Positions 13,675 through 58,237 of a stretch of DNA of 64,000 nucleotides are shown one piece after another. Where the stretch lies: positions 27,487,037 through 27,551,036 of the forward strand of contig CM026426.1 of NCBI GenBank assembly GCA_014871385.1. Reading direction: 5' to 3'. Source of the stretch: Ceratodon purpureus (Eukaryota > Streptophyta > Bryopsida > Pseudoditrichales > Ditrichaceae). The notes beneath the pieces were generated by a model. It ran no database searches, had not been told where the DNA came from, and was given only the letters and a program-made list of their open reading frames with translations. Every line of letters starts with the position of its first letter. Positions within the stretch are counted from its first letter, which is position 1. Made by a program: the position numbers and the translations under genes.

Positions 13675-13677
<3 letters not shown>

Positions 13678-20798: not shown

Positions 20799-21269
20799 TT
20801 GATGGAGAGGGTAGAGAAGGAAACTGATGTTTGGGTTCCCAACGTGGAGGAATGTGAGGTTATCGACACCCTCTCAAACTTGGGTGACTATTCGGTGGTG
20901 AGTACATATGTAGGTCCTACTGTGGATAGAGCTGAAAACATGCATGATGATTCCGTGGTTCCTCCAAGAGTTGGATCATACTGCGAGCTTCGCACTTCTA
21001 GAGTACTTCCAAAGATTTCAAGTCCGTCGTGGAAACCGAAGAGCTTCACTCCAAGCCAACCAAAGAAAGTCTGGAATATGTCGAATCCATACGGAGGTGC
21101 GGTTGGGGACGGAAAGATGTACGTGTCAGTGCTGCGTAAGCCTTTTGTGCGACCCAGTGCGCCTGCGTCGACGGAGACTGAGATTGCAATCAACCTTCAA
21201 GATCACGAGGGCTGGGAGAGACTAGATTTCTTGGAAGAGTACACAGAGAACGGCAAAGTTGAGCAGTAG
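20799..21269 (+). CDS. Hypothetical protein, possible accessory gene of element A
   Basis: Open frame of 156 codons starting MMERVEKETDVWVPN, acidic at both ends with a basic Pro/Ser/Lys-rich middle (residues about 70-100). I recognise no domain. It reads toward the transposase gene, separated by the palindrome repeats. A similarly small, acidic, plus-strand open frame (46767-47219) occupies the same position downstream of the element B transposase. The two share length and a weak GK...(V/I)-rich pattern near the end, too little to assert homology. An alternative is a chance open frame. Confidence 0.35.
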   Translation: MMERVEKETDVWVPNVEECEVIDTLSNLGDYSVVSTYVGPTVDRAENMHDDSVVPPRVGSYCELRTSRVLPKISSPSWKPKSFTPSQPKKVWNMSNPYGGAVGDGKMYVSVLRKPFVRPSAPASTETEIAINLQDHEGWERLDFLEEYTENGKVEQ

Positions 21270-21389
21270 CGCATAGGGTAGCGTATGTAGATGACTGCTG
21301 CAGTAAGGCTGCGGTAAGGCCCGGTAATAGACTTGGAAAGCTTCAAGTTATAAAGATAATAGGTTGCAAGGAGTGATGACATCTTGGCA

Positions 21390-22070
21390 ATGTCTTGTTA
21401 GATTCCCAAATGGCCGGACTGCGACGATTTGTAACAACTGTGTCGACGAGCAATAAAGGGATGCTTCAGGCGTTAACGAAAATGCCCTCCATTATATCCC
21501 TTCATATCATGAGCCACCGTTGGAACTTTCGGAAGGATTTTGAGGAGGTGGTCGGGGGGCAACCACGACATGAATGAGTGGCCTAAACCCATTGTAGGAT
21601 CCGACAACAACATTCGGGGACTTGTCCAGCAGGGGTACTGCGGACATGGGAACAGAGCTGCAGTGGCATGGGATTCCGACAGCCAGATTACCACAATATC
21701 CGGTCCAGATGATACCTAGCCAGATCATAGTGAGGGTTTGAGTACTGCCCGCGTGGGTGTCGGTTCGCATCGGGGACGAGGAATTCATCATGCACGCCCG
21801 CCTAAAGTGCGGAATGGTCATGGGATTGATGAGGAAGGTTTTGGTTGATTGATAGAAGCGTTATAATACATAAAGTGCAATTTGCAAACCTCAGATGTAA
21901 GGAGTGATGCTGATTTCAAAGTGATTATATATGTATTAAAGGATCGAAATGAGAATAATACAATGATTCTCGCAAAGGCCTGTTGCAAATCTGCGATCAG
22001 TTCACGCTGTCTACTTCCTTCTCATATACTCCTAGAACGTAGGTGAAAATTTGATGTCTCTATGCATACG
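21390..22070. repeat. Palindrome-bearing repeat unit of element A, copy 1
   Basis: Contains TGTAGGATCCGACA (21593-21606) in a context (CCTAAACCCATTG before it, GGGGTACTGCGG after it) that recurs in the two units at 23155-24040. The tail near 21900-22060 (ATATATGTATTAAAGGATCG..., CCTAGAACGTAGGT) also resembles 24180-24310. This repeat therefore follows both minus-strand genes, the 224-codon frame and the transposase. Confidence 0.55.
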
Positions 22071-22139
22071 GCTGTGCCTCAGCAACCTAGCGTGCCACGT
22101 ACTACGGAGGACAATACTGAAATGTTGCAACAATAGATG

Positions 22140-22814
22140 TCAAACGGGAACTTTCTGCGCCACCTCCGATACAGACTGCAGACTTGGACCTATCACAGAA
22201 CTATCACAAATCCATCTTTCGCCATTTCGTTTCCATAGAGAAATCATGCGCAGAGTAGGGCACTGCGTGGAAGGGTTGTCAACAACATTAAGAACCTGCA
22301 GCCCCGAATACGCTTCCTGGCGGTACGTGTCCCGCCAGAAATCGACTGTGAGAAACGTGACTAGGTCGGGTGGGGAGGGCTGCGCAAAACACAACGTCAC
22401 GCTGTTGCCGTCCGGGAAGAACCCCACATGACTCAGTTGATGGAAGGTTGTGGACTCACTCGGAGGAATATGAGGTGTCATGATTCCTCCGGAAGGTGCT
22501 TCCTGAAAGCCTTGGCTAGGTACCCAGACGAAAAGCATGATGCACCTCATCTTCTTTGGGGCGTCAGCGGAATGGAAAAATTGATCATCATAGAGCACAC
22601 TGCAGTTAAATACCTTCAATAGCCACGTCTTAAAATTCTGAGTCCAATCCTCAGCGGACTGATAGAGTGAAAACTCAATCTTGGCCTGGACGGAGGGCTT
22701 GCAAAATACTATATCCCCGATCTGCGGATCCATCATGGAGCTGGTGTCTAACATAATTCGCAATCTACGGCCTAGGCTAAAACAAATCGGTTTCATTGCG
22801 AGGTCCATTGGCAT
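22140..22814 (-). CDS. Hypothetical protein, possible accessory gene of element A
   Basis: An uninterrupted 224-codon frame, unusual among the broken genes around it. It begins MPMDLAMKPICFSLGRRL and has mixed hydrophobic/polar composition suggesting a folded globular protein, no transmembrane helix or signal peptide, and several Trp and Phe residues. I do not recognise the family. It lies downstream of the transposase on the same strand and is bracketed by copies of the element A palindrome repeat, which suggests it travels with the element. It could also be one exon of a larger gene. Confidence 0.45.
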   Translation of the reverse strand: MPMDLAMKPICFSLGRRLRIMLDTSSMMDPQIGDIVFCKPSVQAKIEFSLYQSAEDWTQNFKTWLLKVFNCSVLYDDQFFHSADAPKKMRCIMLFVWVPSQGFQEAPSGGIMTPHIPPSESTTFHQLSHVGFFPDGNSVTLCFAQPSPPDLVTFLTVDFWRDTYRQEAYSGLQVLNVVDNPSTQCPTLRMISLWKRNGERWICDSSVIGPSLQSVSEVAQKVPV

Positions 22815-23154
22815 CAGGTGGAAATGACCCAGCGTTCTTCAATAACCTCATATATAGAGATCAACCACAGGCAGTATGAGTGAGCCGCCGGCAACTACGA
22901 AACTGCTTTAATGGTGTAGGGTGAAATGCTGCGGTGAATCATCGTTCCAGAAATTTGGCAGTGTTATGGCTGTATGAAGGTGAGTAAACTGAAATTTATA
23001 AAACCGAGGTCATTATGATGGCGCACATCTCAGTAACCTCCAACAGACTGCTTCACTGTCAATTACCATGGAATTACCAATAAATCTACTTCTAGGCGTT
23101 AAGGTCCTAGTTTCCTGTTCCGGGCTAAAGACCTGCACCTAGGTTTGAGGCATC

Positions 23155-24040
23155 AGATCAATGTTGTGGCTGCGGTCATTACGGTGTTATCGGATACCTG
23201 CAGAGTTTAATCATCAAGACGGCCCATTGTTCTCAACAATCATTACTATTTACTACTGTCGTCAGTGGCAAAATCCAAACTCGCTGTCCGTCACATACCT
23301 ATGCAACGAGGGTCGACCAAGGCCACCCACGACATTGGTTAGGGGCAAAAACCCACTGTTGGATCCGACAATCGCTTTCGGAAGGAGGTCGACATCTGGG
23401 TACTGCGGCCTAATGGTAGGAGCTGGAGTCCTATAGAAACTTGGGAGCCTAGTAAAAGTAGCCCCCGGGCCTGCTAGTACTTAAACTCCTATTACTGTAG
23501 AGAGCGCTTGAAGTAACACGGGTGCCGGTTCGATGAATTAGAGAACCCATTCAAGGTGGGACGATGCTAGATGACCGAGAATTTTTTTGGACTTACATGA
23601 AATCAATGCCGTGGCTGCGGTTATATTCGATGATAAATGCGGAGTTACCGGCCACCTGCATCATTCCATCATCCAAACGGCTCTGTGCGCTCAACAATTA
23701 TATTTTTTAACCAGTGGAAGATGGATATTGGTGGACGAGAAATACTCCATCTGTCTTGAGTGGCAATAACCAGAGTAGGCGTCCGTTAGAAAACTATCCG
23801 ACGAGGGTCGACTGGGGCCGCCTGCGACATTGCTGAGTAGCCAAAACCCACTGTCGGATCCGACAATCACTTTCAGGAGGAGGTCGAAATTGGGGTACTA
23901 CGGCCTAGCATTAAGAGCCGGAGTGGCAATGAAACCCGACAGCCGGGTTGGAGTAGCACCCCGACTGGCACAGACCCGGCCCATTATTAATGTATAGTGG
24001 GGTTGAACTATCACGGCTGCCGGTTCCATGATTCAGATAG
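23155..24040. repeat. Direct tandem duplication of about 444 bp carrying element A palindromes
   Basis: Two diverged units, about 23155-23598 and 23599-24040. Shared landmarks in order: ATCAATG..GTGGCTGCGGT, GAGGGTCGAC..GGCC, AAACCCACTGT.GGATCCGACA, GAGGAGGTCGA, GGGTACT.CGGCCTA, GCCGGTTC.ATGA and AGGGTGGGACG. The palindromes are TGTTGGATCCGACA at 23357-23370 and TGTCGGATCCGACA at 23852-23865. Non-coding. Confidence 0.8.
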
Positions 24041-24414: not shown

Positions 24415-27400
24415 TTAGAATGTGACGAGCTCTAGAAGGCCGCTCTCGAGGATCGTCTTCACTTCGTTAAAGCTGAGAGTTGGAGCATGGATGTAGGAGT
24501 CCCGATGCATTTCAAGGTTGCATATCGCGTTGTAGATGTAGTAAAGATGCTTGCAAGGGACCCAGGGAGGACGTTTCCCAAGGGACTTGACGGACATCTC
24601 CTTGAAGTTGACGCAAGTGCATCCGGGCTCGGGGCCAACTGTGATCTTGTACAAGTTTGACTCGGAAACAGTCTCGGAGACAAGGCTGATTATGCAACCA
24701 AACCTAGGTGTTGGTATCATTGTCACGGATTGGATATGAACCGTGAGTAGAAGCGACGACGCCCAATTGTTCTCGTGCTCGGTTCTAAGAACCCGGTTGC
24801 AGCGACGAATCTTGAAACCTCCACGCACGGTGGGATATACTCCAGGAGCATCGAGTACAACTAAGTGCGAGAGTTCAAACCGTGGCCGCTGTGGAATGCT
24901 GCCGTCGCTGTCATCGAAAACTCGTTGAGAGGGTAGCTCCAGACGCTGAGGTAGTCTAAAACCAGCAGCCTCTAGGTCCAAAATCTCTCGCTTTGTAAGG
25001 CGAGTTCCACGCTTCACGGGCCTGATAAGCGGAGGGGGGGCCATGCTTGAGACCCAATTCCGTTTTGTGCCCATGACGCATCTCTGAATGTCGTCGTTAC
25101 AGAAGCAGAACTGCATCCATTTCTGACGATCCTTCCTGACTTCCGTAAAGGTGCCCCAGTAGCATGGCACAACTATGGTCTTCCCTCCGCGTACGAGCCT
25201 GGCCTTGCACTTCTTGTTTGTCTTTGCTTGCTGTGCAAAGTATGCCTTTGCACAGCCCTTCGGCAGCCTGACAAGATGCCACTTACTGTCGTCCACGTCC
25301 ATCTCCTCTACTGCAATTACGTGTTGATGAGTCGTATTCTCGTCGGGGCTTCGGACGGGCGAAGAGGCTGCGTCCACAGGTACAGGATCAGCTTCTACCC
25401 GAGCACTCGTCTTCCTTGTGGCCACTTTGTCGGGTCTGTGAGAATCGTATTCGGATCCGATTGGTTGATCCAACTTCCGCTTCGTTGAGCAAAGACCTCT
25501 TTGCCTTCTCTGTGGGGCTGACGAGAGAGCATTTGTGGAGCGTCGTGGAAGTGTTCCGTGGCATCAGCAAGACGTTTGGGAATGCCGGACTTCTGAGCCC
25601 GCTGTAAACAGAGCTCGGCTTTGCACGGTCCTTTACCTGGGTTTTCTCCTCTGAGGTAGGCGCTATAGTTTGTGCACTGCATGAAGCCCCGGACATAGTC
25701 GTCGACTGTGGCTGTTTACAAGCTAATCCCACGGTTGCCTGACATCTGAAGCCATATATTATGGGTAGTCTCTGAGAGGTTGCACGACGGCATCTCGTCC
25801 TTCTCCGCGTTTGTGAGGTTCTGCATTCGAAGAGAATTCCAAGAATTTAGCAAGCTCTGCGTTCAGTGGCAGCAAGGAATACGAATAGAATGACAAGTTT
25901 AGCGCACAAGGACTCACTAATTGCATGTAACCGCCCCACTGTCGGTACCGATAGTGCCAAAAGACAAGCCACTGCTCCAAATGTTCGAGTCCAGCAGGTG
26001 TGGAGGCCGCAGGTGAAATCCACCAAAAACGGAAGGCATGGTAACGAATGTCGGCATCCTCCCATGTCTTTGCATCTCGTTACTGCCTGCACAAAGCGTA
26101 ATGTTGCCTCTGGAGATCGTGACCTCGAATGTGAGCCTCTGTGTACTTCTTCAATGAACTTGCCCAGTGGAATTGGCAGGTACGCTCACGGTCGGGCATT
26201 GGATCGTCCGCGTTTCTGTTTCCATAGATTGCACGAACAACGTTCCAATTGGCCTGTGCGCTGTCCGCCATGAAGCCTTTGAAATTGACATTATTCACCT
26301 TGTGCTTTGCCATTATCCCGTTTAGACCCCGCCAGAGCATACTCTGCGCCTGCGCGTCCTCGGACTGCATATCGCATACATCAACTGTCATAATACGGCA
26401 GTATTAGGAGTCATATACATGACACGCCATTGTTGACCAATCCTTTGTTCGCCTCACGTGATCAAACATGATCCACGCATCTTCCAAGTCTCCGCCAGGC
26501 TGCATCCGCTTTAGGAGATCCACCCCTGACCTGGGGCCCCTCTCCGACATCTTGAACACAAAGACCTTCTCGCCCTCCGCCCCCTGTCCCGGAAGTTTGT
26601 TCTCGTGTATAAAATCCCATTTGCTGCAACCTCGCAGCGCGGCTATCCCGTCCATTACTCCCTTGTTGCCGACGGATCTGAAGGTCGTGACGTCGTTCTT
26701 CAGAGCTGGCCGGCTAAGAGGATAATAGAGCCTAAACGCCTGATCGAGCTCATCATCCGAAAGATATTTACGCACTTCGCCGGGTTGGGCAAGAAGGAGG
26801 TCACTCAAGAAGTCCTTGCTAGCTTCCAATGCAATAGCAGAGGTTTTGCCCTCAGGATTCTGACCGACATGGGAATCGACGAGGTTGAGGATCTTCTGTT
26901 TGCTTAACCTGTAGTCAACGTATCCTACGGGTTGGTCGTGCGTGCCGATATGGATGCACGCACGGGTCATGTCAGCCCCCCCTAGGACGTAGTATATTCT
27001 AGCAGGGCATTGGGCGAGGCATTGCGGAGGAGTCTTGCAGATCTTACACACGAGCGTAGATTTTGCAGGGGGATCACAACTTACTTTAAAGGGGGTCAGC
27101 GACAGTCCATCCCACTCAGCCTCGTTGACCTCGCTCAGACGGTTCTTCCCTCGTTTGCGAAAGTCGCAATTGTCATTGCAGCATCTGAGATGCCCTGCAC
27201 AAACGGAGTATCGAAACGTAAGCCGTGAGTCGTTGGAAATATTGGACGTCATCGTCTTACACCACGGATGTCCGTCGTACTTCTTGTCCATTCCTACCAT
27301 TGATTTTGCCGTCGATGGAGTCGCGGCAGGGGGCGCTGGAGGAAGCTCAGATAGCACATCGCCATTGAAATTGCCCAGAAGAAAGGGAACCCGCTCTGTC

Positions 27401-27936
27401 CTGAGCGTAGTGAAGTTCAGCCTGGACAACGCATTCTTAGCGCCAGATCGTGAAGCTAGGCGTTTGAGACCAGAGACGACACTTGAGCTGCCTACATATG
27501 ACTTCTGCGTCGGTATGGCGTGCACTTGCAGAGTTCTAAACAAATCATCTGATTCACTGAGCTCATGGATCTGTTCTACCACTGGATCTAACTTCGCGGC
27601 CTTAGTACCAGGACCTGCATCTACCGTTGAAGTCATTGAGCGCCCGGGTGTAAGTATCTCAGTGGATGCTGCCCATCGGTCTGGAGTCAGTCCTCTAGCA
27701 ACATACTTTCTGGCCTCTAGAAGCCACTCTCTCCCTTCAGTAGTCCTACTGGGCATTTGATAAACCGTGTGAACCAAATTTCCGCCATCATCGACAACCT
27801 CCTCCTCTAGATGGATGCTCTCCAGCACAATGTTGTATCTGACGCTAAGAAGACCAGCGCTAACGGATCCGACTCCCTCGGCATTACACGGAATATGGAG
27901 AGGAACTTCGTGCCCTTCATTGCAAATTTGGGCCAT
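24415..27936 (-). pseudogene. MULE-like transposase, element A (degenerate)
   Basis: Catalyses cut-and-paste movement in intact Mutator-like elements. From the start MAQICNEGHEVPLHIP at 27936: a poorly conserved N-terminal region with a STEILTPGR motif; zinc-binding segments (CAGHLRCCNDNCDF near residue 246, LVCKICKTPPQCLAQC, then RACIHIGTHDQPV, a WRKY/FLYWCH-like pattern); a DDE-type core with TVDVCDMQSED, FKGFMADSAQANWNVVRA and RTCQFHWASSLKKYTE; the block WLVFWHYRYRQWGG; and, in 25473-24415, a C-terminal region with a SWIM module CTCVNFKEM...PCKHLYYIYN. Element B has the same order throughout. In-frame TAA codons interrupt at 26404 and 26080, another TAA lies near 25723, and a frameshift precedes the SWIM part near 25480, so it is inactive as it stands. 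Assignment to the Mutator superfamily rests on the DDE pattern and the SWIM tail. Confidence 0.75.
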
Positions 27937-28396
27937 GGTCGAGAGAAATCAGGATTAAACTATGGAGAGGCGACGGATAGTCAGTCCCATATATAGACTG
28001 CGCTTAGAGCGTGGTATTGAAGGAACTACAATCAGGGGGATTCCGAGCGGATCATTACCAAATTGCGGGTGAACGAAATCGATTAGGGACTTAAGAAGGA
28101 GGACTGTTTTTTAAATTAGAGAGATTGATGAGGAAGGTGATATTTAATTACGCAGCGCTTTTTACTAGGAGCCGTCAAAGAGTATGTCATAAATGCAGGT
28201 CGTGATGTTTGCACATAGTGCAATTTTACTACATCCAGTATTTGGCATTCACTCGTCTCATTCATCTATCCGAGTGGAGTAATGTCCTCATTTCTCTCGT
28301 TCCATACCTTCGGGCTCAGACTAGAATGAGCGGAGCCGTCGACAGGGTTGACAGGTCTCACCGTCAACAATGCCTAAGTCACGCTGAACGGGGGAG
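27937..28396. promoter_or_regulatory. Divergent promoter region of element A
   Basis: About 460 bp separates the outward-facing transposase and ParB-methylase genes. TATATAT on the minus strand (27989-27995) lies about 53 bp upstream of the transposase start codon, a reasonable TATA-box distance. No equally clear TATA box is seen for the plus-strand gene, whose start is itself uncertain. Confidence 0.5.
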
Positions 28397-31300
28397 TTGA
28401 GCTCACCCAAGCAGGCTACACATGCAAAAGGGAAGAGGACGACGAAGAAGAAGGGGTTGAAATTGACGGATAGTAAGCGCAACAGTAGTAAGCAAAGTAA
28501 TAGTAAGGTCAGTAAGGGAACCCGATCCGTTACGTCTATTCTTGGGGACCCTCGATGTGATGTAGGGGGATGTCCGAGCTCGAACATACGGGAATCTGCC
28601 ACCGAAGTAAGCAGCAACCATCGCTCAGAAGGACATGTGGCGATTGCCGATTTGACCGGGGTGGTGCATGACCTCCGCGCTGTTCTGGTGAATGAGAGAC
28701 CTCATTCAGATGTAAGCTTCCCTTCATGACTTCTTGGTACGTTCTTTTGAAGTGGTTCTTGGCAGAGTTGAGATTTAGGAATGGAGGTAATGGGTGTCTT
28801 TCTATATACAGGATTGTTTGGAGAGCTTCTTTTTATGCTAACTTAGTGGTACTCGTTAGCGGCGGCCTACAGTGATGTGACTGTGACCCTTCGAAAGTAC
28901 CCATGTTCATGTAATGGTAAGCGCGAAACGCAGCTTCTGGTGATGTGATGTTTAAGGTTTTAAAGAATTATGGTTTCAAGTAAAGTCAGCATTGTTTGGT
29001 GGGTTTTAGTACTCAGCAGCCTCTAGTTTTACAGCATTCAGTCATGGTTGGTGGAAGCCATCAGTGAGGGTTGGTGGCAAGGACAATAGTCCTGTGGTTA
29101 GAGTTGGGGATGAGAGCCGCCGGATCGCTAAGGTGTGGTTCTGAAGCTATTGCTGGTTGTGGTTAGGAGCATAAAGACGAGGAGGAGCTCGTGAGATATC
29201 TACAGACACAGGGTTTAGGTGAGAAAGAAGAGGGAAGAGGACTTTTGAGTGTGATAAGTGAAACATGTCTCCATTGTTCTTGGGTTCTGTCAAGCTTGGG
29301 ATTTGAATTGTTGTTAGCTCTGTAGCATGCGAGGTTATGGAAGATTAGGACAGTGCTCACGGAGGACAGAGTGTGGGTCCGTTTAGGGTGAAGGGGTTGT
29401 AGTGCATTGTTGTAGGATATTGGTGATCGCCTGTTGGAGGGAATTGGTGATCGACTGCTGCATTGTTTGTTGGTTTCAAGGTCTGAGCGCTCCGTTGAGT
29501 AGCGTTCCGAGACGGCTTCAAGGTGCATGCACAAGTAATGGAGGTAACCGAAATGGTGGCGTCGCGGATATAGGGAGGAAGAGATGAGTTAGGGTTTATC
29601 ATTATTTAGGGTTCTTGGCATGTTGTTTCGAGAGAAGATGTTATTTAGGGTTCTTGGCATGTTATTTATCGGCGTCTTAAGATGTACCCGCGTCTCTGTG
29701 CAGGAAACGATCACCAACTTTGCTGATGTGGTTGACGAGAACGCGGCCACTGTCAACGCCGTGTTGGAAGACTTACAGAAGGGATCAATTTGAGACGAGT
29801 ATATGGACAGCTCACAACCGCCTATCGTCGCGGTTGGTGGTCAAGTAGGCTCCGACGTCTTCATGGAGGACTTTGTGGATGGGGACGATCACGCGGAATC
29901 GGATAACCCACGTGAGGGCATGTTTCCGATAGGGGAGGAAGAGCCCAAAGGACTTGATGACAAGATCGATGCCGTTGACAAGATCGATAACGCGGACGTT
30001 GCATTAGGCGAATGTGAGGCCGATGCTGCAACAGGCGAGGGTGCTCAAGCTTTGATCAGCATGTCGGTCGAGGTTGGAACGGGGGAGGGTGCAGCTGCGC
30101 TCCACGCACAACGTGCGAGGCGAGTTGGGGTCAACGAAGCACAAAGGCAGATCCGTTTGGAAATGCAGCTGGATTTCTATTTGGCACTTCTAAAAATGAG
30201 GCGTAAACCAGACAGGCTGTCATTGATAAAGATTCCTCTATGTCGTTTGCTGCCATGTGATTTCGTTCGACCCGCGATGCTCAGTGACGTTCAGAAATTG
30301 CAATCCGAGTTTACCAATGGGATAAGGCCCGGCTCAGGGGCATTCTACGTTGCGGCAACGTCGCAAGTGGGCGATGAATCATTTGTGACCAAAGAGATGA
30401 AGTCTTCTTGGTGTTCAGTGTGGCATACCTTGAACAGCATGTTCGAGGCGGAGCTATTAAAACACGAGGAAACTCGAGATCTTAGTGGGAAGATGTTCTA
30501 CGTCTTTGATGGTAATCATCGGACGAGGGCGTGGCGCGAGTTTATTGAGATGGAGTACCCAGATGACTACGACTGGGCATATGCGAATGGCAGACCGGAT
30601 TGCATACTGTTGGAGGTGAAGGACAGTTGCGAAGCGCTAGTGACAGCTATGCACGCGATCAACAAGTAAGACTTCCGATTTTCAGCTTGTTCCATTTTTA
30701 TGCAGTACAGGGTTCTCACTTCGTTAATTGTCATATCCAAACTAACATCTCTGCCTATGCAGGGCCAACGAGGAAGCGTTCATCAAAGAGAGACTACCTC
30801 ACACACTGCACAAGATTCAAACCTATGGAGCCATGTCCGCTGAGGATTTGGAAAAGAGTGGAATTTTGCCCCTAGATCTCATGGCCCGAACGAAGGCGGT
30901 TTCCAAGAGGTCGTGGCATACCATGCCGTAGGACGTCTTTGTGTCCTTTCTTCACGCGGTAAGTACTTCAGAACTTTTGAATTCCGAAGATGATGATTGG
31001 TTCATTGAGGTACAGAAATAAATATTGAAATGTCGATTTACTCAGGGGACATTAACCCGAGTCGCTCAGGAGGCAGTGCAGCTCTGGATAACAGAGCACC
31101 CAGACGAAGACACCAGGGCTGAGATGAAGAATGACGTGGAGAAAGCAGTGAAAGATGCAAAGGATAAGCTGCAAAGCAAGTTCAATGAGGAGCAGTCGGT
31201 GGCTAACTCGGCGCACGGAAAGGCGTTTCATGCTGAGGTATGTCTCCGAATTTGGGCAAGGGTCTTGTAAAACTGAGAGCTTAAAAGAGCATTGTTGGAT

Positions 31301-34300: not shown

Positions 34301-35246
34301 ATAGGAATGGCAAACTTGTTCGTGGAGGAGGTTATGCCGATCTAGTTATTGCGGATGTGCCGCAGAAGTTGAGTGTTCCAGGTGTTTCACTACGAACAGA
34401 TGAGATTCCAGAATGGAACAATCGAGACGATAATTTCCTTGCAAGAGTATTTGGCATTGCTGGACATATTTTGCAGGATAATGGCGCTCTAATCGTAATT
34501 CACAGCGCTGACGATGGGGAGGTAGAAAAGGAAATGGAGGAGTGGTTCAAAATCTTCCCATTTTCGATTCACAAGTCCTGGTTAGGATACAATCGCCTGC
34601 GCCTCAGCTCTTCGAAGAAGAGCGGATCCACGACAAATTGTTTTCGGGTCCACCTTATTACCCATTCTACTCATTCAGAGTTCGAGTTTCGGAGGGTACC
34701 GGCAGAGTTCTGTAGGCACGGAAATGTGATTGCCGAGGACGATGTCATTCAGAATTGGACAACGATAGCAAACCAGGCGATGAGGAATCTTGGAAGAGGT
34801 CTGGTACCGTGGCGCAGACCGAGGGAGAAGGATGAGTTCTTCATGGAGAGCTTAATTCGCGCAACGACTGATGAAGGGGACGTGGTCATAGACGTTACTG
34901 CCGCCACAGGTAGGTCTTACTGCCGAGTTGTTATGAATTTGCTTTGCTTAAGAAGAAGTACTTGTTGGTACTTACTATACAGTGGATTTGGATCGTAGGA
35001 GCATCGATCAAAGCGTGCCGAGATAGTGGGCGCCACATCGTTGCATTAGAGGCAGACAAAGACATCTTCAACGATGTCCTCATGAAGTTGGATTCTCTTG
35101 CACCATCTAAGCAAGCAGTAGTACAGCCTACCACTGCAGAGATGACCTCCACGGAAGAGAACACCACCATAGCGGATGCGAAGCCTCCTATCTCCACAAA
35201 CTCATACATTGCCCGAAAGAGATTGAAGAAACTTGCGCTTGAGTAA
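28397..35246 (+). pseudogene. ParB-like / DNA-methyltransferase-like fusion gene, element A (multi-exon, degenerate)
   Basis: Exons by GT-AG junctions and comparison with element B: about 28397-28711 (basic, Lys/Ser-rich), 29704-30665, 30763-30958, 31045-31237, 33024-33242, 33358-34909 and 34999-35246. Exon 2 has an acidic stretch and then a ParB/sulfiredoxin-like domain: IPLCRLLPCDFVRP, later FYVAATSQ and YVFDGNHRTRAW, the last matching the DGxHR motif. Exon 6 has a Lys/Arg-rich linker (about 33940-34090, likely nuclear localisation) and then a methyltransferase-like domain: YADLVIADVP (position of motif IV), DNGALIVIHS, DEGDVVIDVTAATGAS across the last intron (motif I) and HIVALEADKDIF. The order IV then I is that of beta-type N4-C/N6-A DNA methylases. 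In-frame stops: TGA 29793, TAG 30929, TGA 33147, TGA 33499, TAG 33541. The start is uncertain. ParB-methylase fusions are known in phages and bacteria; biochemical activity here is unproven. Confidence 0.65.
31238..33023. repeat. Intronic 149-bp-period tandem array with the BamHI-type palindrome
   Basis: This intron carries twelve copies of TGT(C/A/T)GGATCCGACA or close variants, starting at 31293, 31442, 31591, 31730, 31826, 32026, 32175, 32324, 32473, 32622, 32771 and 32920. The first three and the last six are spaced exactly 149 bp. The two sub-arrays (31238-31680 and about 32085-32995) have different unit sequences but the same period and the same palindrome. Units of sub-array 1 begin at the splice donor itself: TGAG|GT recurs at 31238, 31387 and 31536. 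Confidence 0.9.
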
Positions 35247-42354: not shown

Positions 42355-42644
42355 ACCTAATTTTCTGACTCTTATTATGTGTCCTCCTACTTGAATAGTC
42401 AATGTTGTGCTTTGTAGGGATCTCAGTGCTTATGTACTACGTAGCTCAGATTGTAGTATGCAATTGTTCCACTTCTCGTGAGTTCTAGGAGTTTGTTATA
42501 GGAAGTATAACCAATACACCCGTTGGCTGGTAAGGTTGTACACTCCATACTTGTGGTTGCGATCACTCATATGATCGTGATCTTAGAGAAGTTAAGCTTG
42601 CACAATGCATAAGAAGGCCAATTTCACTAACGGCATGTGACTAA

Positions 42645-43960: not shown

Positions 43961-44289
43961 ATACAGGCTCAAGCAATCTGTAGGATTGCTTTTTGTATTT
44001 AGTTCTTTCTGTTTTTGATCTATTGAGCTGCGGTAGAATGCTTGTATAGAATGGATTTGCAGGTATATTAATGTATCATACTTCATCACTGAGGTCTTCC
44101 TTTCAGGGAAGGTTTGAGGCTTGTCTGTTTTTTTTCCCCATACGGTTGTTCTATTTGCGGCCCTAATTTTTATTTCTTTATTTGTAGTCTTCTCCTCCGG
44201 TCTTAGAACTTATCTTTTCTATTTTCATGACCATGACGAGGGGAAGGTGGTCTGCGAGGATTCAACAAGGCTGAAGCTTCCTATGATGC

Positions 44290-47219: not shown

Positions 47220-47478
47220 AATCTATATTTAAATGTATTCATGGCATTAGTACAGTCCAACTGTGCGTTGATATAAATAACAAATGCCACTTGTTGAAAT
47301 GACTGCTATTGTAACACAATGTAATAAATGTGAATGACAAAACCTTTATATTAAAATACGCAATACGAGATTTGTATTGCTGACTCACTACAAGGAAAAA
47401 TCCAATCACAAGAGACTAAGTATCCGCATGAACCACTGTCCACTATGCATACTCGAGACCATAATAGTAAAGTGCCTC

Positions 47479-50400
47479 CTACTTTTTGGCCAAGGGGTGT
47501 GTCAAGATTCCTTTCTCTGGGACTAGCTTGACTTCGTTGAAACTAAAGGTAGGCGCATGAATGAAAAGCTCGGCCTCCAGATCACGGTTGCAGAACTTTA
47601 AAATGATGTAATAAATGTGTTTACAGTATGAAAACTGTATCTTACCTCGAAACTTAGTCATCGTCTTCCTGAATGCTGGACAAGTGCAACTCGGGTAAGA
47701 TGTGATGGTGATTTGGTACTTTTGGATGTTCGAAGCAATGCCCGAATCTAGCCCGATGATGCAACCATGGCCTGGATGAGGTATCATGGTGACGGAACGG
47801 AGGCGAGCCTTGAGGGACTGAGAGGAGCCCATGGAGAGTCGCTGCGCGGGGTTAGGTCCAGTCGCTGTGCGTTTGACCATCTTCCCATCTCGCTTACCAT
47901 GGTAGCGGTCAGCTTCTGCTGGAATCGGCAACAAACCGAGATTTGCAAGAGGCGGAGCAAACGAGAAGAGCCGTCTTGGGGAGACTAGCTTCTTCGGCGG
48001 GAGTCGGAACCCTACAGCTTCAAGGGCGGGGATCTCTGTGAGCTTTAGGTTAGTATCTAGTTTTACGGGCCAGACCTCTGGAATCGGCGGCACTTCCTGG
48101 TCCTTCGAGTAGTGTGCTACCCACCTGCGCCTTGTGCCTTTCACGCAGCGCTCAATATCATCGAAGCAGAAGAAGAACTCCGTCCTCTCAACTGTGTTCC
48201 TGCGATAGTTAGTCCAAACTCCGATGTAGGTCGGTGCAGCAGTGAAGTTTGGGCCCCTGACGATTCTCTTGTGACAAGTTGGTCTGACAAGTTTTGTAAA
48301 GTCTTGCAATGTGCCACTCCTTCACATCGACCTTGGTTTTTTCAACAGCGTTGACATGGCGAACGCCTACCTCGTTCATAGGAGACGTTGGGGGCAAGTA
48401 AGCTTCTTGGGGGGGAGATTCTTGGGCTTCTTTTTCTTCAGAATCGTCCTCGACGATGATGGGCAGCTGGACAGGGCGAGGTCGATTGGCATGTCCTACA
48501 CCTCTAGGACGTGAGAAGTTAACCTTGTCTGGTCGATGTGACTCCTCGTCAGCTCCGATGGGAACGTCTGCCTTACGCTTTTGTGATCCAAACACCTCTG
48601 CACCCAGCATGACAGGCTGACACGTGCAGAAGTCATCTGCACTAGGCATATCCAGCATGGGATCTTCAATGACTACAGGATTTCTTGTGATCTTCGCCTT
48701 GCGTTTCGCCATTCAAAACTTGAGTTCCTTCTTCAAAGGTCCAGTTCCGCCTACATCACCTTTCAGGAACTGGTAGTAATTTACAACCTGCAGAAAGCCC
48801 CGAACATAATCGTCCACAGTGGCAACATAGAGGTCGCTGCCGTTGTTACCTGATGCTTGTAACCACTTATTGTGAACTGTTTTGGCGAGGTTACAGGTCG
48901 GCATCTCTGTGAGTTCTTCTTCAATAAATTTCTGCAGTTTAAACAAATACAGTAATTAGAATCGATTATAGAAGTGATGTGGATTAAGTTTATCTAAACA
49001 AAAAACAAGTACTGCAGCAGGGTTTAGTAGCATCATACCGCAGACATTAATCCACCCCACTGACGGTAGCGGTGGTGCCAGATTGCAAGCCAAGTCCCCA
49101 ATTTGGTTAGTCCCTTCTCTCCCACGACCCCAGTAGATATCTACCATGCTTGCAACGCGTGATAAAGAGTTTCCGCCTCTGTCAAACTCGTTGCTGTCCT
49201 ATACTGGTTGCACATCTTCTTGTGCTGTTCCCGAAGCTCTTCGGGGAAATACTTGTCAGTATACTGGACCATGTTCTAAGTCCAGTGGAACAAGCAAGAC
49301 CTTTCCCAATCCTCCATTTTGTCTTCTTTGTTGCCATTTCCATAGAGGATACGCACTGCATTCTAATTTGCTTGTGCATTGTCCGCCATGAACCCCTTGA
49401 AGTTTGGCGCTGCAACGCCATTCCTCTCCATAACGATGTTGAGGTTCTTCCAGAATACCAGTTGGGCCTCGCTGTCCTCAGTTTGCATGTCGCAACTTGC
49501 AATCGTCATGACGCCGCAGTACGTGGCGTGATATACATAGCAAGCCATCATGGACTACTTCCGTACACGCTTTACGTGGTCGAACATGATCCAAGCATTG
49601 TCAAGATCCCCACCAGGTTGCATTCTGGTGACCAAGTCAACACCACTACCTGGCCCAACTTCTGACATCTTGAAAACAAAGATCTTCTCTCTTTCAGCTC
49701 TTTGGCCCGGGAACTTGTTCTTCTGGATGAAGGCCCACAAACTGATCCCACCGAGTTTGGTGATGGCGTCCATCACATCGTACCTTCTTAATCGCTTGAA
49801 AGTCATCACCTTGTTGCGGATATTTTGGGAAGCCATGTCGTTGCACCGATCAAGTACAGGAATGAGCTCCTCCCTGCTCAGCTTCTTCGGTGGTGCGTCC
49901 TCAGGCTGTAGGAGGTAGTTCCCGATAAGAACCTTGCTGGCCTCCAAGACAACGGCGCTCTTCGTAGCCCGGGGAGTATTCTCCACCTGCTCTTCAATCA
50001 AGTTATTGATCTCTTCCTTAGTGTCTCTATAGTCCCCAAACTTCATTGGATGATTATGTGTTCCTTGATGGATACATGCCCTAGTCTGGTTGGATTTAGC
50101 TAGAACGTAATAAATCTTGGCTACGCATGTAGCGATACATGCAGGAGGTTCTTTACATACCTTGCAGACAAGTGTTGCATCCGCTAGAGGTGGTTGATCC
50201 AGTGTAAAAGCTTCGAGGGTACTACCCTCAAACTCAATCTCGTTTACCTCAACGATTCGAGGTCGACGGTTGAGAAATTCACATTCTTTGTTGACACAGT
50301 GCAGCCAACCAACGCAGCTGGAGTAGCGGAATGAGAGGCGGAACTCGTTAGTGATGTTGATAGTGATTGTCTTCGTCCTAACGTGGCCGTCGTAACGCTT

Positions 50401-51159
50401 GTCCATTCCCTTCATAGCCTTCGCTTGCGTCTTGGAAGCCCCGTCACCAACTCGAGGGAGCTTGAATATCACATTGTTGTTGAAGATCGCAGGTAAGTAC
50501 TCCACCTTCGCCTGTCTAACTGAGGAGAAATCTATTCTTTTCAGAATATTTTTCCTCCCATGTCTCTCGGCAAGTATCCTAATGAGTGGCAGTACATTGA
50601 CAGTCTCTTCCTTTGATGTCTGGGAGGTACTGGCACATTTGTCTGGTAGTGTAGTTGGCGTGCTAGATACTACAGACTATCTAGGCAAAGCAGGTGATGC
50701 TTTTAGGGGACTAGTCTCTTCATCTGAGGAGAGGGAGATGACTGGTGTTACATCAGGAGTGTCCAAGCCAGGCTCTACCTTAACCTTCACATCACGAGGC
50801 AAAGGAGTCTGAATAGTAGATGATCTACGAGGAGTTAGAATCTCAGTAGACGCCTGCATCTGGGACTCTATAAGACCATAAACTCTGTATCTACCAGGAT
50901 AAAGGTTCAAGAACCTGTTCTCGTCATCATCTTTCTCAGAAACCTGATCTAGCGTATGTGTAATCTCATTTGTCTCATCATCATAAATCTCTTCCTCTAA
51001 ACAAACAGTCTCCTCTCTAAAGTGAAATCTGAGGCTAAGGCGTTGTGCCGTCACAAGTTCCAAGCCATCCTCATCTACACATACTGTAAGTGGAATACCA
51101 ACACCATGTGCTCTGAGCACGGCCATGCCTAACACTCTGTCTCCAGGGAGATGAGCCAT
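47479..51159 (-). pseudogene. MULE-like transposase, element B (degenerate)
   Basis: Co-linear with the element A transposase from the start MAHLPGDRVLGMAVLR at 51159: ASTEILTPRRS; GMDKRYDGHVRTKTITINIT; SCVGWLHCVNKECEF; CKVCKEPPACIATC; RACIHQGTHNHPM; GGDLDNAWIMFDHVKR; MTIASCDMQTED and FKGFMADNAQAN (DDE-like core); LAIWHHRYRQWGG. A GT-AG intron spans 49038-48932. Then KFIEEELTEMPTCNL, TVDDYVRGFLQVVNYY, a charged linker with ESHRPDKV, and the SWIM module CTCPAFRKT...YCKHIYYII, ending at 47479. Breaks: TAG 50677, TAG 49555 (Trp in A), TAG at 49363-49365 and at 49276-49278, TGA 48713, and a frameshift near 48300. Zinc ligands are better preserved than in A (GTHNHP). The shared order over more than 1,000 residues makes A and B members of one family despite strong divergence. 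Confidence 0.78.
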
Positions 51160-52776: not shown

Positions 52777-53434
52777 GTATGTCATCTGCGTATTGTTTTA
52801 ATGTCATTGCCCGCGACGGCAGAGTCAGTTGGTGCCCAGAAACCGATGCCGGTACCGGCAGCGCCTTCTATGGCAACCTCGCGCATTCCACTCGCACAAC
52901 AATGCACATGTATTGAGCACCGAGGGTGCCCTAGAAGGCGACGCTCGTACCGGCATCAATTTCCGGGCACCGGTTGCCTCTGCCTTCCATGGCGCCTCTC
53001 AGGTTATCCCTTACCTTGCCCTTTTTCGCAAGTGTTTTCACCGCGAGCACGATGTGCCCGTGAAGCTGTCTCCGGTACCGACGCCCCTCCTTGGACAGTG
53101 ATTAGGAAGTGCCCGATGGTTTAGGGTTGCTTTTTGAGGGTATCGGCGATGCATCTTGGGCAGGTTGACTGCTGGGTTTGAGGGTTTTAGGCGTGTTGGG
53201 CTGCGAGGCTGCTATGCAGTGAAGCTGTTGGGCTGTTGGGGTGCAGAGACCTGGGGCCTTCAATAATGCGTTGCTGGTATCGGCATTACATTCTGGGCGC
53301 TCTGTTGAATTCGCTGCTGAGAATTTTAGGTGTTGCCCAGAAACATTGTCGGTATCGGCACCTTTGCAATGGTGTCTATGGTGCGTCTAACCTTACATCT
53401 ACAGCAACGGACTAATATCATCTCTACTGTGCAG
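52777..53434. repeat. Intron with scattered KpnI-type palindromes (element B)
   Basis: Contains TGCCGGTACCGGCA (52847-52860), TCCGGTACCGACG (from about 53071) and degenerate copies such as TGCTGGTATCGGCA (about 53275) and TGTCGGTATCGGCA (about 53348). These are weaker members of the family concentrated in 54789-55886. Confidence 0.7.
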
Positions 53435-54788
53435 TTCCATTGACAGAGCGTGAGGTCAATCAGATGCTCCATGACGTAGTTGCGAACCAGACGGTCAACA
53501 CCGCATCGAGGTTGGAGAGACTCAGATGGCAACCGAAGAACAAAGGCCGGCTCTTCATTCCCCTTTGTCGTATGATCTCGTTGCCCATGGTAAGACCTTA
53601 CTTGAAGAACGATGTATCAACTCTGCAGGTTCACTTCGTCAGAGATGGTTACATAGAGGACAACGGCTATTTCTACGTGGCTCTGGAGGATAACCACGGA
53701 CACACATCTGAGGTCTCACCTGCAATCGAAGAATCATGGTCAAAAGAATGGAAGGAGGTGAATGAGGATTCGAAGCGACCCTGCTTGCAGACGATGATCT
53801 GAAGGTCTTTTCGAAAAAGATGTTTGTGGTTTGGAATGGAAAGCACAAGTTGTAGGCTTGGTTGCCGATCATTGAGCAGTATCATGCTGGTGACATAAAT
53901 TGGCATTACCGAGTTGAGAGCGTTGTACTTGACCCCAAGGGTGAAATTCCATTGGTGCTCACAGCCCTTCACAAAGTGAACAGGTAAGTGTCGAATAATT
54001 TGATTTATCCGATAATGGTTAATATACTATTTGCTGGGATATGATCTTTAAATATTTCATTGTTGTGAATAAGTAGGAGGAACCAGAAATCGCATGTCTC
54101 TACAAACCTTGTGCACAGGCTCTATCGGATACAGAACATAGCTCCTCAGCCAGTGGAGTATTTCGAAGGACTTGTTTCGCGGTCCGTCATTGATGCTGCA
54201 AGAAAAAGCAGTCTGGAAAAAATCGGACCTGGTATACACTGTCAGTTGAAGCCCTGAACGCTGTTTTGCATCAGGTGCGAAGCTTTATAACCCCGCATTC
54301 ACTAGCTTTAAAACCACGCTTTTATTTTGTCTTTTCAATTGATATTAATTTATATTTAAATTAAACCACAGCACGAGATCGGGGAGGCTGCTCACGCCGC
54401 CCAACAGCGGTATCAGTTGGCTAATCCCAACCCGAGCCAATGGACCGAACGCTCAGCAGATGAATGGGCCACAAAGGCGGTCCAGAGGGTGGAGGACAAA
54501 TTAGCCGGGGAATTGAGGACGATGTTACCTATTGCTAATCCGAAGCACTCCTTCAAATTTCTTAAAGAAATTAAGCTGCACTATGAGAAGGCAGATGATA
54601 AGCCTGAGATGCAGCAGGAGAAGCTGTGGATGTTGGCGACCTCTGCAATGCCAGCAACAATGATGGTGAAGTGGCTCCAGATGTGGAACTCCTCGGAGGC
54701 AATCAGAGTTGCCCACAAGTTTCCGAAAGGTGGATTTTCAGTCGCGGTGTTTCTGCCATGGCTACATAAGGCTACATGGTGGGCTCAA

Positions 54789-55886
54789 GTGAGTACCTTT
54801 CAACTATATTGTCGGTTACTAGCATTGGTCTCTTAATCATCCGCCAGTACCGACGTTGCTATGTGGGCGCCCTCTGCTTATGCTATATGGTTGTTGATAT
54901 CTTGGTTCCTGCCGTCTGAGTGACTACTATGATTGTTTGAAGGCACTGCCGGCACCGGCGATGCTTTGAGAGCACCCGGGCAGTCAATGAGCAGGTCATC
55001 AAAGGAACCTGCTTGTTGACAGCATAGGAGCTCTGAGAGCACTGGCGGTGACTTCCAACCATTATAACAGTCACTCAGATGGCTATATGCATAGCCTTCT
55101 CGATGACTGACCAGGTGCTCTGAAAGCACCGCCTGTACCGGCAATGCCTTTGAAGCACCTTCACAGTCAAAGAGATGGCTGTCTACTTAGCCTTCTCTAT
55201 GACTGTTAGGGTCCTCCGAAGCCACCGCCGGTACCGGCGGTGCTTTCAGAGCTCCCGATCAGTCATCGACCAGGTTGTCAAAGCAATCTGCTCGTTGACT
55301 TCCCGGGTGCTCTGAAAGCACTGCCGGTACCGGTGGTGTCTTTGAAGAACCCTCGCAGTCAATGAGAAGGCTGTCCACTTACCCTTCTCATTGACTGTTA
55401 GGATCCTTCGAAGGTACCGCCGGTACCGCCGGTGCTTTCAGGGCGCTTGGATTGTCAACGAGCAGGTATTGTGACGACCGGCTCGTTGACTGCCCGGGTG
55501 GTTTGAAAGCACCGCCGGCATCGGCGGTACCTTTGAAGGACCCTAACAGGCAATGAGAAGGCAGTCCACGTTTGCCTTCTCATTGACTGCAAGGGTTCTT
55601 CAAAGGCACCGCCGGTACCGGCGGTGATTTCAGACCGCCCGGGCAGTCAACGAGCCGGTCGTCACAATACTTGCTCGGTGACTTTCAGGGCGCCTTGAAA
55701 GCACCGCCGGTACCGGCGGTGCGTTTGAAGCACCCTTACCATCAAAAGAAGGCTAAGTGGATAGCCTTCTCCGTGACCGTGAAGGTGCTTCAAACGCACC
55801 GCCGGTACTGGCGATGGATTTGGCAGGGGTAGCGGTTCGTCCATGTTGATTTCAAGAGATGCTAATTCTCATTTACTGTGTTGCAG
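54789..55886. repeat. Intronic hairpin array with the KpnI-type palindrome (element B)
   Basis: About ten copies of ACCGCCGGTACCGGCGGT or variants, for example 55224-55241, 55511-55528, 55608-55625, 55703-55720 and 55798-55815. Many extend to a ~30-bp palindrome (TGAAAGCACC...GGTGCTTTCA). Between them alternate further inverted repeats, such as CAGTCAATGAGAAGG paired with CCTTCTCATTGACTG, and GTCAACGAGC paired with GCTCGTTGAC. The single-stranded intron should fold into a row of stable hairpins. Confidence 0.9.
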
Positions 55887-56141
55887 TTGGCGATTGAGGC
55901 AGAGGAGCTTTTCAAGGGAGTGATTACAGTTCTCAGGGTGCAAGTGGATTACACACCGGATAATGGAGACCCGATCCATAACATATTCGACTACGTTAAA
56001 GCAATGAGATGTCAGCTCTGGGATAGTGCTTTTTTTAGAGTGTTGAGTGGAGACCTTGTCCATAAGAACAAGAACAAGAACCTTGTCCATAAGTCCAATG
56101 TTTCTACAATGACATTTATTGAGTCATTCAATCATATGTAG

Positions 56142-56710
56142 TATTTTTAAGCCGCGGCTATATAAACAACATTTTTTAACTGAATCATCAATTACAAGTC
56201 TGAAGTGAGAAGAGAGTGCTTGTAGTTCGATGAAATTTCTCCAAACATATAGCGAAGGTCATTGCGTCAGAAATTCTAGGAAGCAAATTACTTGAACATG
56301 TAATAAAAAGTGAGAGGTAATATAGGCTGCTGTAAAAATTAAGATTCCCATGTCAGAATTGTTCAAGGAATAAACTCGTCCTCACTTTCAACTGCACTGT
56401 GATCTATAAAACGACATCGTGTAGGATTGTATTTCAAACGAGGACTAGAGGATGCACTAGAACAATGGGATGAGTATTCAGCTAAGGCTTGAACTTGGTC
56501 CTCGACGTAACATGGAAGCCGCATGTCAAATGAGGTAGGGGACTGGTAATATCTCCAACTCTTTGCATTGGTCAGTCGTCGATTGCATAAAAAAAAATCA
56601 ACTTGTTAGAAATTGAATGACCAGTTTAAGCATACACTTACCGACAAAGGAACAAGACATACAAAGATATACAGACAAAGAAATACAACTTACTCACATA
56701 GACTAACGAT
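56142..56710. other. Junction between the two convergent element B genes
   Basis: No gene seen. It would hold both 3' ends if the ParB-like and methylase-like genes converge here. If element B suffered an inversion, one breakpoint should lie between about 56.0 and 56.7 kb. Confidence 0.4.
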
Positions 56711-58237
56711 TCATTGTTCAGGTGGAAGGTCATCGTCGTTGTCTGAAAGTTCTTTAGTGTGAGGCACCTCCTTCCCCACTGCTTTCGATGACGACGCCAT
56801 GAGCGATTGAAGCACCTGTTTGAAGATCTCCTTGTCGCTTTCCAAGGCCAAAATTGCCCGGTTGTATGCCTGGGCTGCCAAAATAGAAGCTCCTGCATAC
56901 AGTCATATTAGCATGTTAATAAAGAAGATGAGAAAAATGAATCGGTGTTGATTAAAACAAAGAAAGGAACACTCCTCTGACCTGTTCCAACTGTTAGGTC
57001 ACAAACGATACCATCCTCTGGACTAAGGCCCCCTATGAAAAGCTTCATAAGCGACACTTCTTTTTCTTTTGGACCCCTCCAGTAAATGTCTCCCTGTCGC
57101 TTAAGTGCCGTGTCTTCCATTAGAATATTTGGAATGACATCGTCTCTGGCCAGGTTTATCTTCTTAAACTTTGGCGGAGTTGTAATAACAAAATCCTTGG
57201 GCTTTTAGTCCATTGCCGTAGCATAGGAACGCACGAGCACAATAGCCTTGGATTTCAGAGTCTACACAGGGGTAAGTAAATGGAATTATCAGTGATTAAC
57301 AAAGGGTATAGAGACCTCGTAGGTTCCGCCGTTGCCCGCTTCGCTTTTGCGGTACCATACTGCCAAAGGCTTTGCCGGTACCGGCTGTGCCCTTCAAGCA
57401 CCTTCTTCTTTACTGCAGTTGCTAATTGCAGTCAAGGTGCAAGCGTGAAGAAATTGCTTGAAAGGCACCGCTGGTACCGGCAATGCCTTTGCGGCCTCAT
57501 TCTGGCCACCTCAGTGGTTGTCGAGATAGTCCAATTCAACCACTGCCTTGACCAGGGAGGGGCCGTAGAGGCATCGCCGGTACCGGCAGTGTCTGAGAAG
57601 CACCATATTCTCCAAGGCGTTGCATTGGAGAATATAGTGCTACAAAGGCAACGTCTGTACCAGCGATGCCTCTGCGGCCCCTCTGGGCATGCGATGGGCG
57701 TCGGGCTAGCCTAGCTAAGCCACAAGCAACACGACGTTCCAGGAGCATACTAAAACATGAAACAAGAGGTACGAATTAAATTACAGAAAGGAATGGTACC
57801 ATCTTAGAGGCGTCTGAGGGGTGAGTCTTATGAAGCGAGTTGTAGATGAGCCACTCGCTCTTCACTTGAAGATTGTTGTTATTTAAAAAAGCGCAAACTT
57901 CCTTCCTGATCTTGCTGCAGTCAGGGTAGAAGAGAAGTAGAGCACCGTCATCGTGAAAGTACTGCCCGCAAAATCCAATTGCGTACTTAACAAAGTCAGC
58001 AACCTTACTGTTCCAACGTAGGACTTCTCCAGGCCAGGATGAAACACCCAGAACAACTAACCCTTTGGGGTAATTGGCAATTGGCTTCTCTTTCAACTTC
58101 CCACCGAAGTAGAATTCCCTAGTGGATCGAACCAATATTTGAGTTTCTAGCAAATCTAACAACTTAGACCCAGAACCCAACAACCCAACAACCCAACATT
58201 CACCTTGACATGCCTTGTGATGCAAAAGGCGGCACAA
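56711..58237 (-). pseudogene. DNA-methyltransferase-like gene, element B (degenerate)
   Basis: Homologous to the C-terminal half of the element A fusion protein but on the opposite strand from the ParB-like gene. Exons: 58237-57800 (REFYFGGKLKEKPIANYPKG, LVVLGVSSWPG at the motif IV position, DDGALLLFYPDCSKIRKEVC, SEWLIYNSLHK), 57261-56982 (KAIVLVRSYATAMD, then LARDDVIPNILMED, PEDGIVCDLTVGTG) and 56892-56711 (ASILAAQAYNRAILALESDK, EIFKQVLQSL, acidic end). The last intron splits motif I (TVGTG/AS) at the same codon and phase as in A. One in-frame TAA (57205-57207) interrupts exon 2. The start codon is uncertain: upstream sequence matching the linker of copy A was not found. Neither copy keeps a canonical (D/N/S)PP(Y/F/W). 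Confidence 0.65.
57300..57700. repeat. Second intronic cluster of KpnI-type palindromes (element B)
   Basis: TGCCGGTACCGGCT (about 57373), ACCGCTGGTACCGGCAAT (from about 57467), ATCGCCGGTACCGGCAGT (from about 57571) and a decayed copy CTGTACCAG (about 57655) lie in the intron between exons 1 and 2 of the methylase-like gene, again separated by inverted repeats such as CACCATATTCTCCAA against TTGGAGAATATAGTG. Confidence 0.8.

Follow-up and report, generated by a model that had tools for sequence, protein, structure and literature searches.

What does a transposon gain from a gene that resembles both a ParB protein and a DNA methylase? The question arises in a 64,000-nucleotide stretch of Ceratodon purpureus DNA (contig CM026426.1, positions 27,487,037 to 27,551,036; here, the window), which we read in six frames. 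We observed that two elements, A (~20.7-35.8 kb) and B (~47.5-58.2 kb), are copies of one gene pair. In both, a transposase gene on the minus strand stands head-to-head with a multi-exon accessory (cargo) gene on the plus strand. Each element has a family of short palindromes specific to it, located in non-coding DNA and mainly in cargo introns. We judged these palindromes to be the best clue to cargo function. Our best explanation, to which as a whole we give a probability of roughly 0.4, is that the cargo would be a sequence-specific self-recognition and anti-silencing factor of its own element, and that A and B, each of its own old lineage, are degraded members of one large eukaryotic transposon family in a plant-type genome.

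We first describe the palindromes, which were spotted by reading introns; all 12-base palindromes with more than two letters were then scanned in regions set by hand. At up to two mismatches, TGTCGGATCCGACA has 15 sites in the window, all 15 of them in A, where 0.03 were expected. At up to three mismatches it has 20 sites, all between 20660 and 35835 (mean 1.73, largest 6 in 100 shuffles). The corresponding word of B, GCCGGTACCGGC, has 19 sites at up to two mismatches, 18 of them in B (expected 0.54 in the window and 0.2 in B), and its 20-base form has 11 sites at up to three mismatches, all in B. The top word of the scan was GTCGGATCCGAC in A (18 vs 0.0 expected) and GCCGGTACCGGC in B (18 vs 0.0). 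With the tandem arrays cut out the same words still came first (8 vs 0.2 in A, 5 vs 0.0 in B). With the arrays removed, ten shuffles gave up to 6 (A) and 5 (B) sites for their most frequent word of any kind. The masked B count of 5 therefore stands out through its low expectation rather than its size. Left of A (1-20500), AT-rich words led with up to 40 sites, and at 36000-46600 no listed word exceeded 5.

Position was checked for 18 of the 20 A matches, and none of these falls in a mapped exon; the 18 include all 15 with up to two mismatches. The B sites, by their coordinates, are upstream of or between B exons. The A and B words agree at 8 of 12 positions; the probability that random palindromes would agree at 4 or more of 6 half-site positions is ~0.04, and a relatedness of the two words is only suggested. 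Two side observations concern other repeats. A 63-bp direct repeat at 20603-20745 contains the near-palindromes TTAGGAGGGTACCCCTCCTAAA and ATCCGATCC(A/G)ACA, and may belong to the left end of A or to a neighboring repeat. A perfect 88-base AT palindrome at 13591-13678 is an ordinary AT microsatellite.

The original prediction had described two copies of a large transposon family. The gene pairs and their homology hold; both copies are broken, and no convincing terminal inverted repeats (TIRs) were found in the flanks compared (best score 30 in A and 31 in B, with maxima of 29 and 31 in 30 shuffles). No gene common to the flanks of A and B was found, the best E among the matches listed from several hundred short queries being 0.03 (left) and 0.005 (right). 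The minus-strand transposases, as predicted, are common to A and B. They matched piece by piece (tblastn E = 1.8e-122 for the first part), with 45% identity over the aligned part and a shared intron position. A frame change interrupts each transposase, together with three in-frame stops in A and six in B. Between A and B, divergence is greater at third codon positions than at first and second ones (0.68 vs 0.38 and 0.30 in the transposase core), and the same excess was observed in 4/4 cargo segments tested. These data suggest that the transposase and cargo genes were under protein-level selection before they decayed.

A profile of the A and B transposases returned 95 related proteins at E ≤ 1 among 5150 candidates. 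The relatives of transposase A include P0002 (94% identical) and P0007 (69%), each over about half of the query. Features of the group are invariant aspartates, a C-x2-H after a conserved MADSAQANW block, and a SWIM-like CxC...CxH pattern, the last observed in A, B and P0001. A SWIM-like finger, a C-x2-H and invariant aspartates fit Mutator-type DDE enzymes. The Pfam SWIM model stayed below the cut-off (E = 0.06 for the B exon, 1.3 for the whole B protein). Neither the Pfam model for Mutator-like elements (MULE, PF10551) nor another Mutator model matched the read-through transposases of A and B at E ≤ 10, and MULE matched 0/21 relatives. Against the PDB, a two-row transposase profile returned one designed protein (E = 1.9) and a 21-row profile returned nothing. 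The transposase therefore appears to be SWIM-type and is Mutator-like by inference only. Some MULE groups have no TIRs, according to the available part of one report (PMC6446971).

We did not observe a transposase relative in viral contigs. Genome contigs yielded one near-full-length relative, in a contig of 4101 bases (L014) filed under the metagenome-assembled genome (MAG) of a Synechococcales cyanobacterium, where it is most likely a eukaryotic contaminant. No cargo query matched this contig, and its three palindromes of at least 10 bases all differ from one another.

The cargo gene of A, as modelled, has six in-frame stops and reads through to ~1235 amino acids. Its ParB-like exon matches that of B (E = 1e-20), and its methylase-like domain (~34300-35110) matches B in two parts (E = 3.4e-8 and 1.4e-5). 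The predicted divergent plus-strand gene was thus found beside each transposase with matching exons, but the methylase part of B is on the minus strand, so the B cargo gene has been rearranged and partly inverted. Conserved splice junctions had also been predicted. By-eye reading confirmed this for the intron within the methylase motif, which in both copies falls within one corresponding glycine codon, as proposed. The homology of two methylase-like relatives with A stops at that splice site, and ParB-like relatives end where the A exon ends. Not all junctions are common to the two copies: A exons 1, 3 and 4 have no match in B. B also seems to lack the A intron that holds the array (31238-33023), since the B frame is open through the point matching the start of A exon 5.

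Five exon proteins at E ≤ 1 were returned among 5745 candidates by a composite query of the ParB-like and methylase-like domains of A. Three are ParB-like (P0096, P0097 and P0098; 90%, 73% and 72% identical to A over the matched part) and two are methylase-like (P0099 and P0100; 56 and 58%). The full-length read-through cargo as a protein query returned nothing at E ≤ 1 among 7999 candidates, probably because exon-sized entries were outside its length limits.

Similarity searches showed, at the sequence level, a methyltransferase fold in the cargo. The domain of A matched DpnA (E = 8.7e-5) and, more weakly, CcrM (0.0097) and RsrI (0.14). The domain of A and P0100 matched phage adenine methylases over 90-97% of its length in 17/443 records, these being the records that cover at least 80% of the domain (best E = 3e-4, covering 92%). 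Against a phage reference, 190 columns of the methylase block were aligned (E = 6.9e-5, HHalign probability 35%). This reference comprises seven proteins, of which Javan213 was checked (Pfam ParB_N and N6_N4_Mtase) and the rest were chosen by similarity to Javan213. The Pfam methyltransferase match was weak (E = 9.3, for P0099). The motif order is that of beta-class N6/N4 methyltransferases (PF01555), with IV followed by X/I. Together with the paired transposases, these data support a two-gene transposon family with a methylase-fold cargo.

The catalytic motifs of this domain are degenerate. Motif IV reads DVPQ in A, DVPE in P0099 and P0100, and NYPK in B, compared to DPPY in the phage reference; all four sequences are without the second proline and the aromatic residue of (D/N/S)PP(Y/W/F). 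Motif I reads DVTAATG, DLAAATG or DLTVGTG, compared to DLFGGSG. Two of the four sequences, P0099 and P0100, are open across the whole exon, so more than decay is involved. The degeneracy of motif IV in 4/4 sequences argues against catalysis, and the domain is probably not catalytic. The suggestion that the element marks its own DNA by methylation was accordingly not borne out.

The ParB-like part contains FDGNHRTRAW in four of five sequences (A, P0096, P0097 and P0098), and the motif is degraded in B. ParB/Srx proteins have a motif of the form GxHR/GxRRxxA with a conserved arginine, and DGNHRTRA fits it. PHROGs ParB gave a weak match (E = 0.15), to P0098 alone of the three ParB-like relatives. 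Pfam and PDB searches returned no ParB match for the cargo pieces and relatives scanned. The ParB part had no relative in viral contigs, and tblastn against phages reached a best E of 0.6. A P1-ParB search, capped at 5000 records, gave P1-type plasmid ParB relatives among the 40 matches listed, none of which was used further. The motif makes a ParB kinship of the cargo suggestive only, a lead and not a finding. Of the fused ParB-like and methylase-like protein originally proposed, the methylase domain is thus upheld by sequence matches and by the profile alignment, and the ParB domain is a motif whose profile comparison did no better than shuffles.

We propose the following account of the locus. 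The ancestral element would have carried a transposase (DDE by its motifs, with a SWIM-like finger) head-to-head with a multi-exon protein combining a ParB-like part and a beta-class methyltransferase fold. This accessory protein, most simply through one or both of these parts, would bind the palindromes of its own element. It would concentrate at them, perhaps spreading as ParB clamps do, and would keep the element active against host silencing, as VANC does for VANDAL. Methyl transfer itself would probably be outside the mechanism. Protein and iterons would co-evolve through tandem repeat turnover, which would explain words that are similar but different in A and B. We count in favor of this account that transposase and cargo were kept together while the transposases diverged to 45% identity.

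The closest parallel in function is the VANC system of Arabidopsis VANDAL transposons, for which we use the available part of the published account (PMC5735166). VANC21 binds YAGTATTAY, which is dense in the non-coding DNA of VANDAL21 and is found in tandem repeats of VANC21 and VANB21 introns and upstream of VANA21; VANC6 has other words (PMC5735166). Elements A and B similarly combine a second protein with family-specific short motifs, which are tandem in introns and non-coding DNA and differ between related families. In contrast to the A and B words, the VANC motifs YAGTATTAY and AGTTGTCC/AGTTGTAC are not palindromes, and an anti-silencing role is proposed here by analogy. ParB proteins are described as binding palindromic sites in the portion of a source at hand (PMC12207404). 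VirB, a ParB-type protein loaded at a specific site, counteracts silencing by sliding, as reported in a partly accessible paper (PMC10770331); unlike the cargo here it is bacterial and acts against H-NS, and the likeness drawn here is one of function.

Several observations weigh against this anti-silencing account. The ParB profile-profile comparison was not significant: 36/100 column shuffles scored as high against the ParB reference, as did 10/100 with a 50-residue insertion removed and 26/100 for the tail alone. An unrelated methylase control block scored no worse and even better (5, 4 and 1 of 100). No VANC-type Pfam domain was among the matches of the cargo pieces scanned, and no direct comparison with VANC was made. 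In a ranking over the whole window, AT-rich words came first, the B word was 8th and the A word was outside the best 12; with the arrays cut out, neither word was among the best listed. Two A matches, at 25940 and 27861 with three mismatches each, were omitted from the list of sites and fall within coding sequence of the transposase. Many palindromes lie in tandem repeats, so their copies are not independent, and several dispersed A sites share flank likeness and may come from one ancestral unit. The copies available as DNA are the two elements and the 4.1-kb transposase contig without cargo (L014). Finally, the sites could bind the transposase instead.

That last point is the basis of the alternative that survives best, although we still regard it as unlikely: the palindromes would be transposase-binding or transposition-control sites, and the cargo would assist transposition and have no part in silencing. 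Plant transposons can have subterminal repeats to which their transposases bind, and copies of the A palindrome are found near both presumed ends (20723 and 35822). However, 10 of the 15 A sites at up to two mismatches are within one cargo intron, ~2.9-4.5 kb from the rightmost site, and the region between transposase and cargo in A has no TGTCGGATCCGACA match even at three mismatches.

It is somewhat harder to credit that the cargo works as an active methyltransferase, acting on N6 of adenine or N4 of cytosine, which would bind the element that encodes it and mark it chemically. The beta-class motif order and the similarity to DpnA, CcrM, RsrI and phage adenine methylases would suit such an enzyme. 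Each of the two palindromes also has an adenine in its self-complementary 4-bp core (GATC or GTAC). An Ectocarpus protein of similar architecture is predicted to have N4-methylcytosine (4mC) or N6-methyladenine (6mA) activity, as the accessible part of its description states (PMC12477816). Set against this is the degeneracy of motifs IV and I, which includes the two unbroken exons.

A third alternative, which we consider improbable, is that the palindromes have no function and arose incidentally as tandem-repeat or fold-back satellites expanded within introns. The arrays have periods of 149 bp and 96 bp with inverted symmetry, and many copies are related by duplication. Yet flank likeness placed the 15 A sites in four groups and the 18 B sites in five, so the same word recurs in several flank groups per element, and scans with the arrays masked still ranked these words first. 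The palindrome columns of A are also conserved above their flanks: over 17 sites, 13/14 palindrome columns reached at least 1.2 bits, compared to 2/60 flank columns above 1.2 bits. This contrast is weaker in B, where two flank columns are conserved like palindrome columns (-8 at 1.5 and -7 at 2.0 bits).

Partition or maintenance of transposon DNA in the manner of plasmid ParB, also put forward in the original prediction, is very improbable and was rejected: a ParB-like motif and palindromic iterons would fit it, but chromosomal elements need no partition, ParB kinship is unproven, and no ParA-like gene was found among 10 window proteins (a subset of the open reading frames) scanned against Pfam.

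We compared the cargo with known ParB-methylase proteins. The Ectocarpus giant transposon Sola1-1_Ec32 carries a ParB-methyltransferase accessory gene of 1104 amino acids, and green and red algal cases are cited in the same account, of which a part was available (PMC12477816). This cargo class is therefore already reported in algal transposons, and we rejected the idea that the cargo here is without precedent. As in Sola1-1_Ec32, a large ParB-like and N4/N6 methyltransferase-like accessory protein is encoded on the strand opposite to the transposase (PMC12477816). Sola1-1_Ec32 differs in having, by name, a Sola1 transposase, and the part of its account at hand does not mention palindromic iterons; the elements here are in a plant-type genome and have a degenerate motif IV. 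This comparison is by architecture alone.

Phage ParB-N6/N4 methylase fusions, such as that of Streptococcus phage Javan213 (L005), likewise have a ParB domain followed by a beta-class methylase. Javan213 has 387 amino acids and a canonical DPPY, whereas the A cargo has ~530 amino acids between the domains and no DPPY, and the ParB blocks could not be significantly aligned. A bacterial ParB-methylase, Bce_0392, is reported to nick DNA in the portion of a study available (PMC5512222). Fungal DNA transposons of several superfamilies encode TET/JBP dioxygenases and so likewise carry an epigenetic accessory gene; the enzyme differs, and iterons are not discussed in the part of that paper at hand (PMC12730594). 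No paper pairing "Mutator-like" with "ParB" was found in a literature search across 5.39 million papers that mostly excluded subscription papers. Within the same range of papers, seen in excerpt, we found no report of iterons in ParB-methylase transposons. The cargo here is thus of a known, ParB-methylase-like kind, but stands beside another type of transposase and has a methylase fold of doubtful catalytic ability; what is new is the element-specific palindromic iterons.

The coordinates of the features are listed in Table 1. Elsewhere in the window, a beta-amylase gene lies on the minus strand (60057-62257), and its part at 61538-62257 matches chloroplastic beta-amylase 1 (8j5d, E = 9e-42), which indicates a plant-type host genome. 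Open reading frames (ORFs) at 15284-17658 on the minus strand are presumably a retroelement remnant with RNase H and reverse transcriptase. Long ORFs at 37072-39308 and 40275-44075 are partly low-complexity and tandem-repeated (D5 repeats at 43051-43233), and the ORF at 37072-38037 had no Pfam match.

Table 1. Features of elements A and B, in window coordinates (empty cells, no strand given).
Feature	Position	Strand	Remarks
A, transposase	24416..27936	minus	One intron ~25833-25916; SWIM-like CxC...CxH near C-terminus; DDE type by inference; broken
A, cargo putative first coding exon	28372..28711	plus	Basic N-terminus; one stop; GT/AG junction to next exon; no match in B
A, cargo exon with ParB-like motif domain	29704..30665	plus	Domain ~30166-30666, FDGNHRTRAW
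A, cargo exon 3	30763..30958	plus	Splice sites read from sequence; no match in B
A, cargo exon 4	31046..31237	plus	Splice sites read from sequence; no match in B
A, intron	31238..33023	plus	Tandem 149-bp repeats with TGTCGGATCCGACA or variants; 12 sites at up to 3 mismatches
A, cargo exon 5	33024..33242	plus	Homologous to B 54570-54788, 44% identity, E = 2e-12
A, cargo exon 6	33356..34909	plus	Basic linker, then beta-class methyltransferase-like domain from ~34300; motif IV ADVPQ, motif I VIDVTAATG
A, cargo exon 7	34999..35246	plus	End of methyltransferase-like domain
A, dispersed palindromes	20723, 21593, 23357, 23852 (20723..23865)		Up to 2 mismatches; non-coding
A, rightmost palindrome	35822..35835		2 mismatches
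B, transposase	47480..51126	minus	Intron at same place as A; broken; P0003 67% identical
B, dispersed GCCGGTACCGGC-type palindromes, 5 sites	52848..53359		Up to 2 mismatches; upstream of ParB-like exon
B, cargo ParB-like exon	53416..53984	plus	Broken by frame change and stop
B, cargo middle exon	54372..54788	plus	Part 54570-54788 matches A exon 5
B, intron	54843..55812	plus	Repeats of ~96 bp centered on CACCGCCGGTACCGGCGGTG and variants
B, possible start of equivalent of A exon 6	55888..56040	plus	Likeness stops here; by-eye reading, inferred
B, methyltransferase-like domain, motif I part, two exons	56729..57153 (57153-56977, 56893-56729)	minus	Inverted
B, palindromes, 3 sites	57374..57587		Between inverted methylase exons
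B, methyltransferase-like domain, motif IV part (IANYPKG)	57776..58237 (match 58105-57842)	minus	Inverted relative to rest of gene

A more far-reaching form of the anti-silencing account is that plant-lineage transposons independently built such a system from bacterial parts, with a ParB-like clamp and a catalytically dead methyltransferase fold loading on iterons of the element's own introns, spreading and co-diverging with them. We hold this fuller version to be unlikely, at about one chance in five. The palindromes give each element a candidate target in the introns of its own accessory gene, which makes the proposed function testable by a binding assay. For the ParB-methylase accessory proteins of algal transposons, the part of the account available names no target sequence (PMC12477816). 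The degenerate catalytic motif is a caution against assuming that transposon methylases methylate. If the proposed function is true, it would link ParB-methylase cargo to VANC-type motif recognition, and would suggest that transposons came by epigenetic self-protection on more than one occasion, starting from unrelated proteins.

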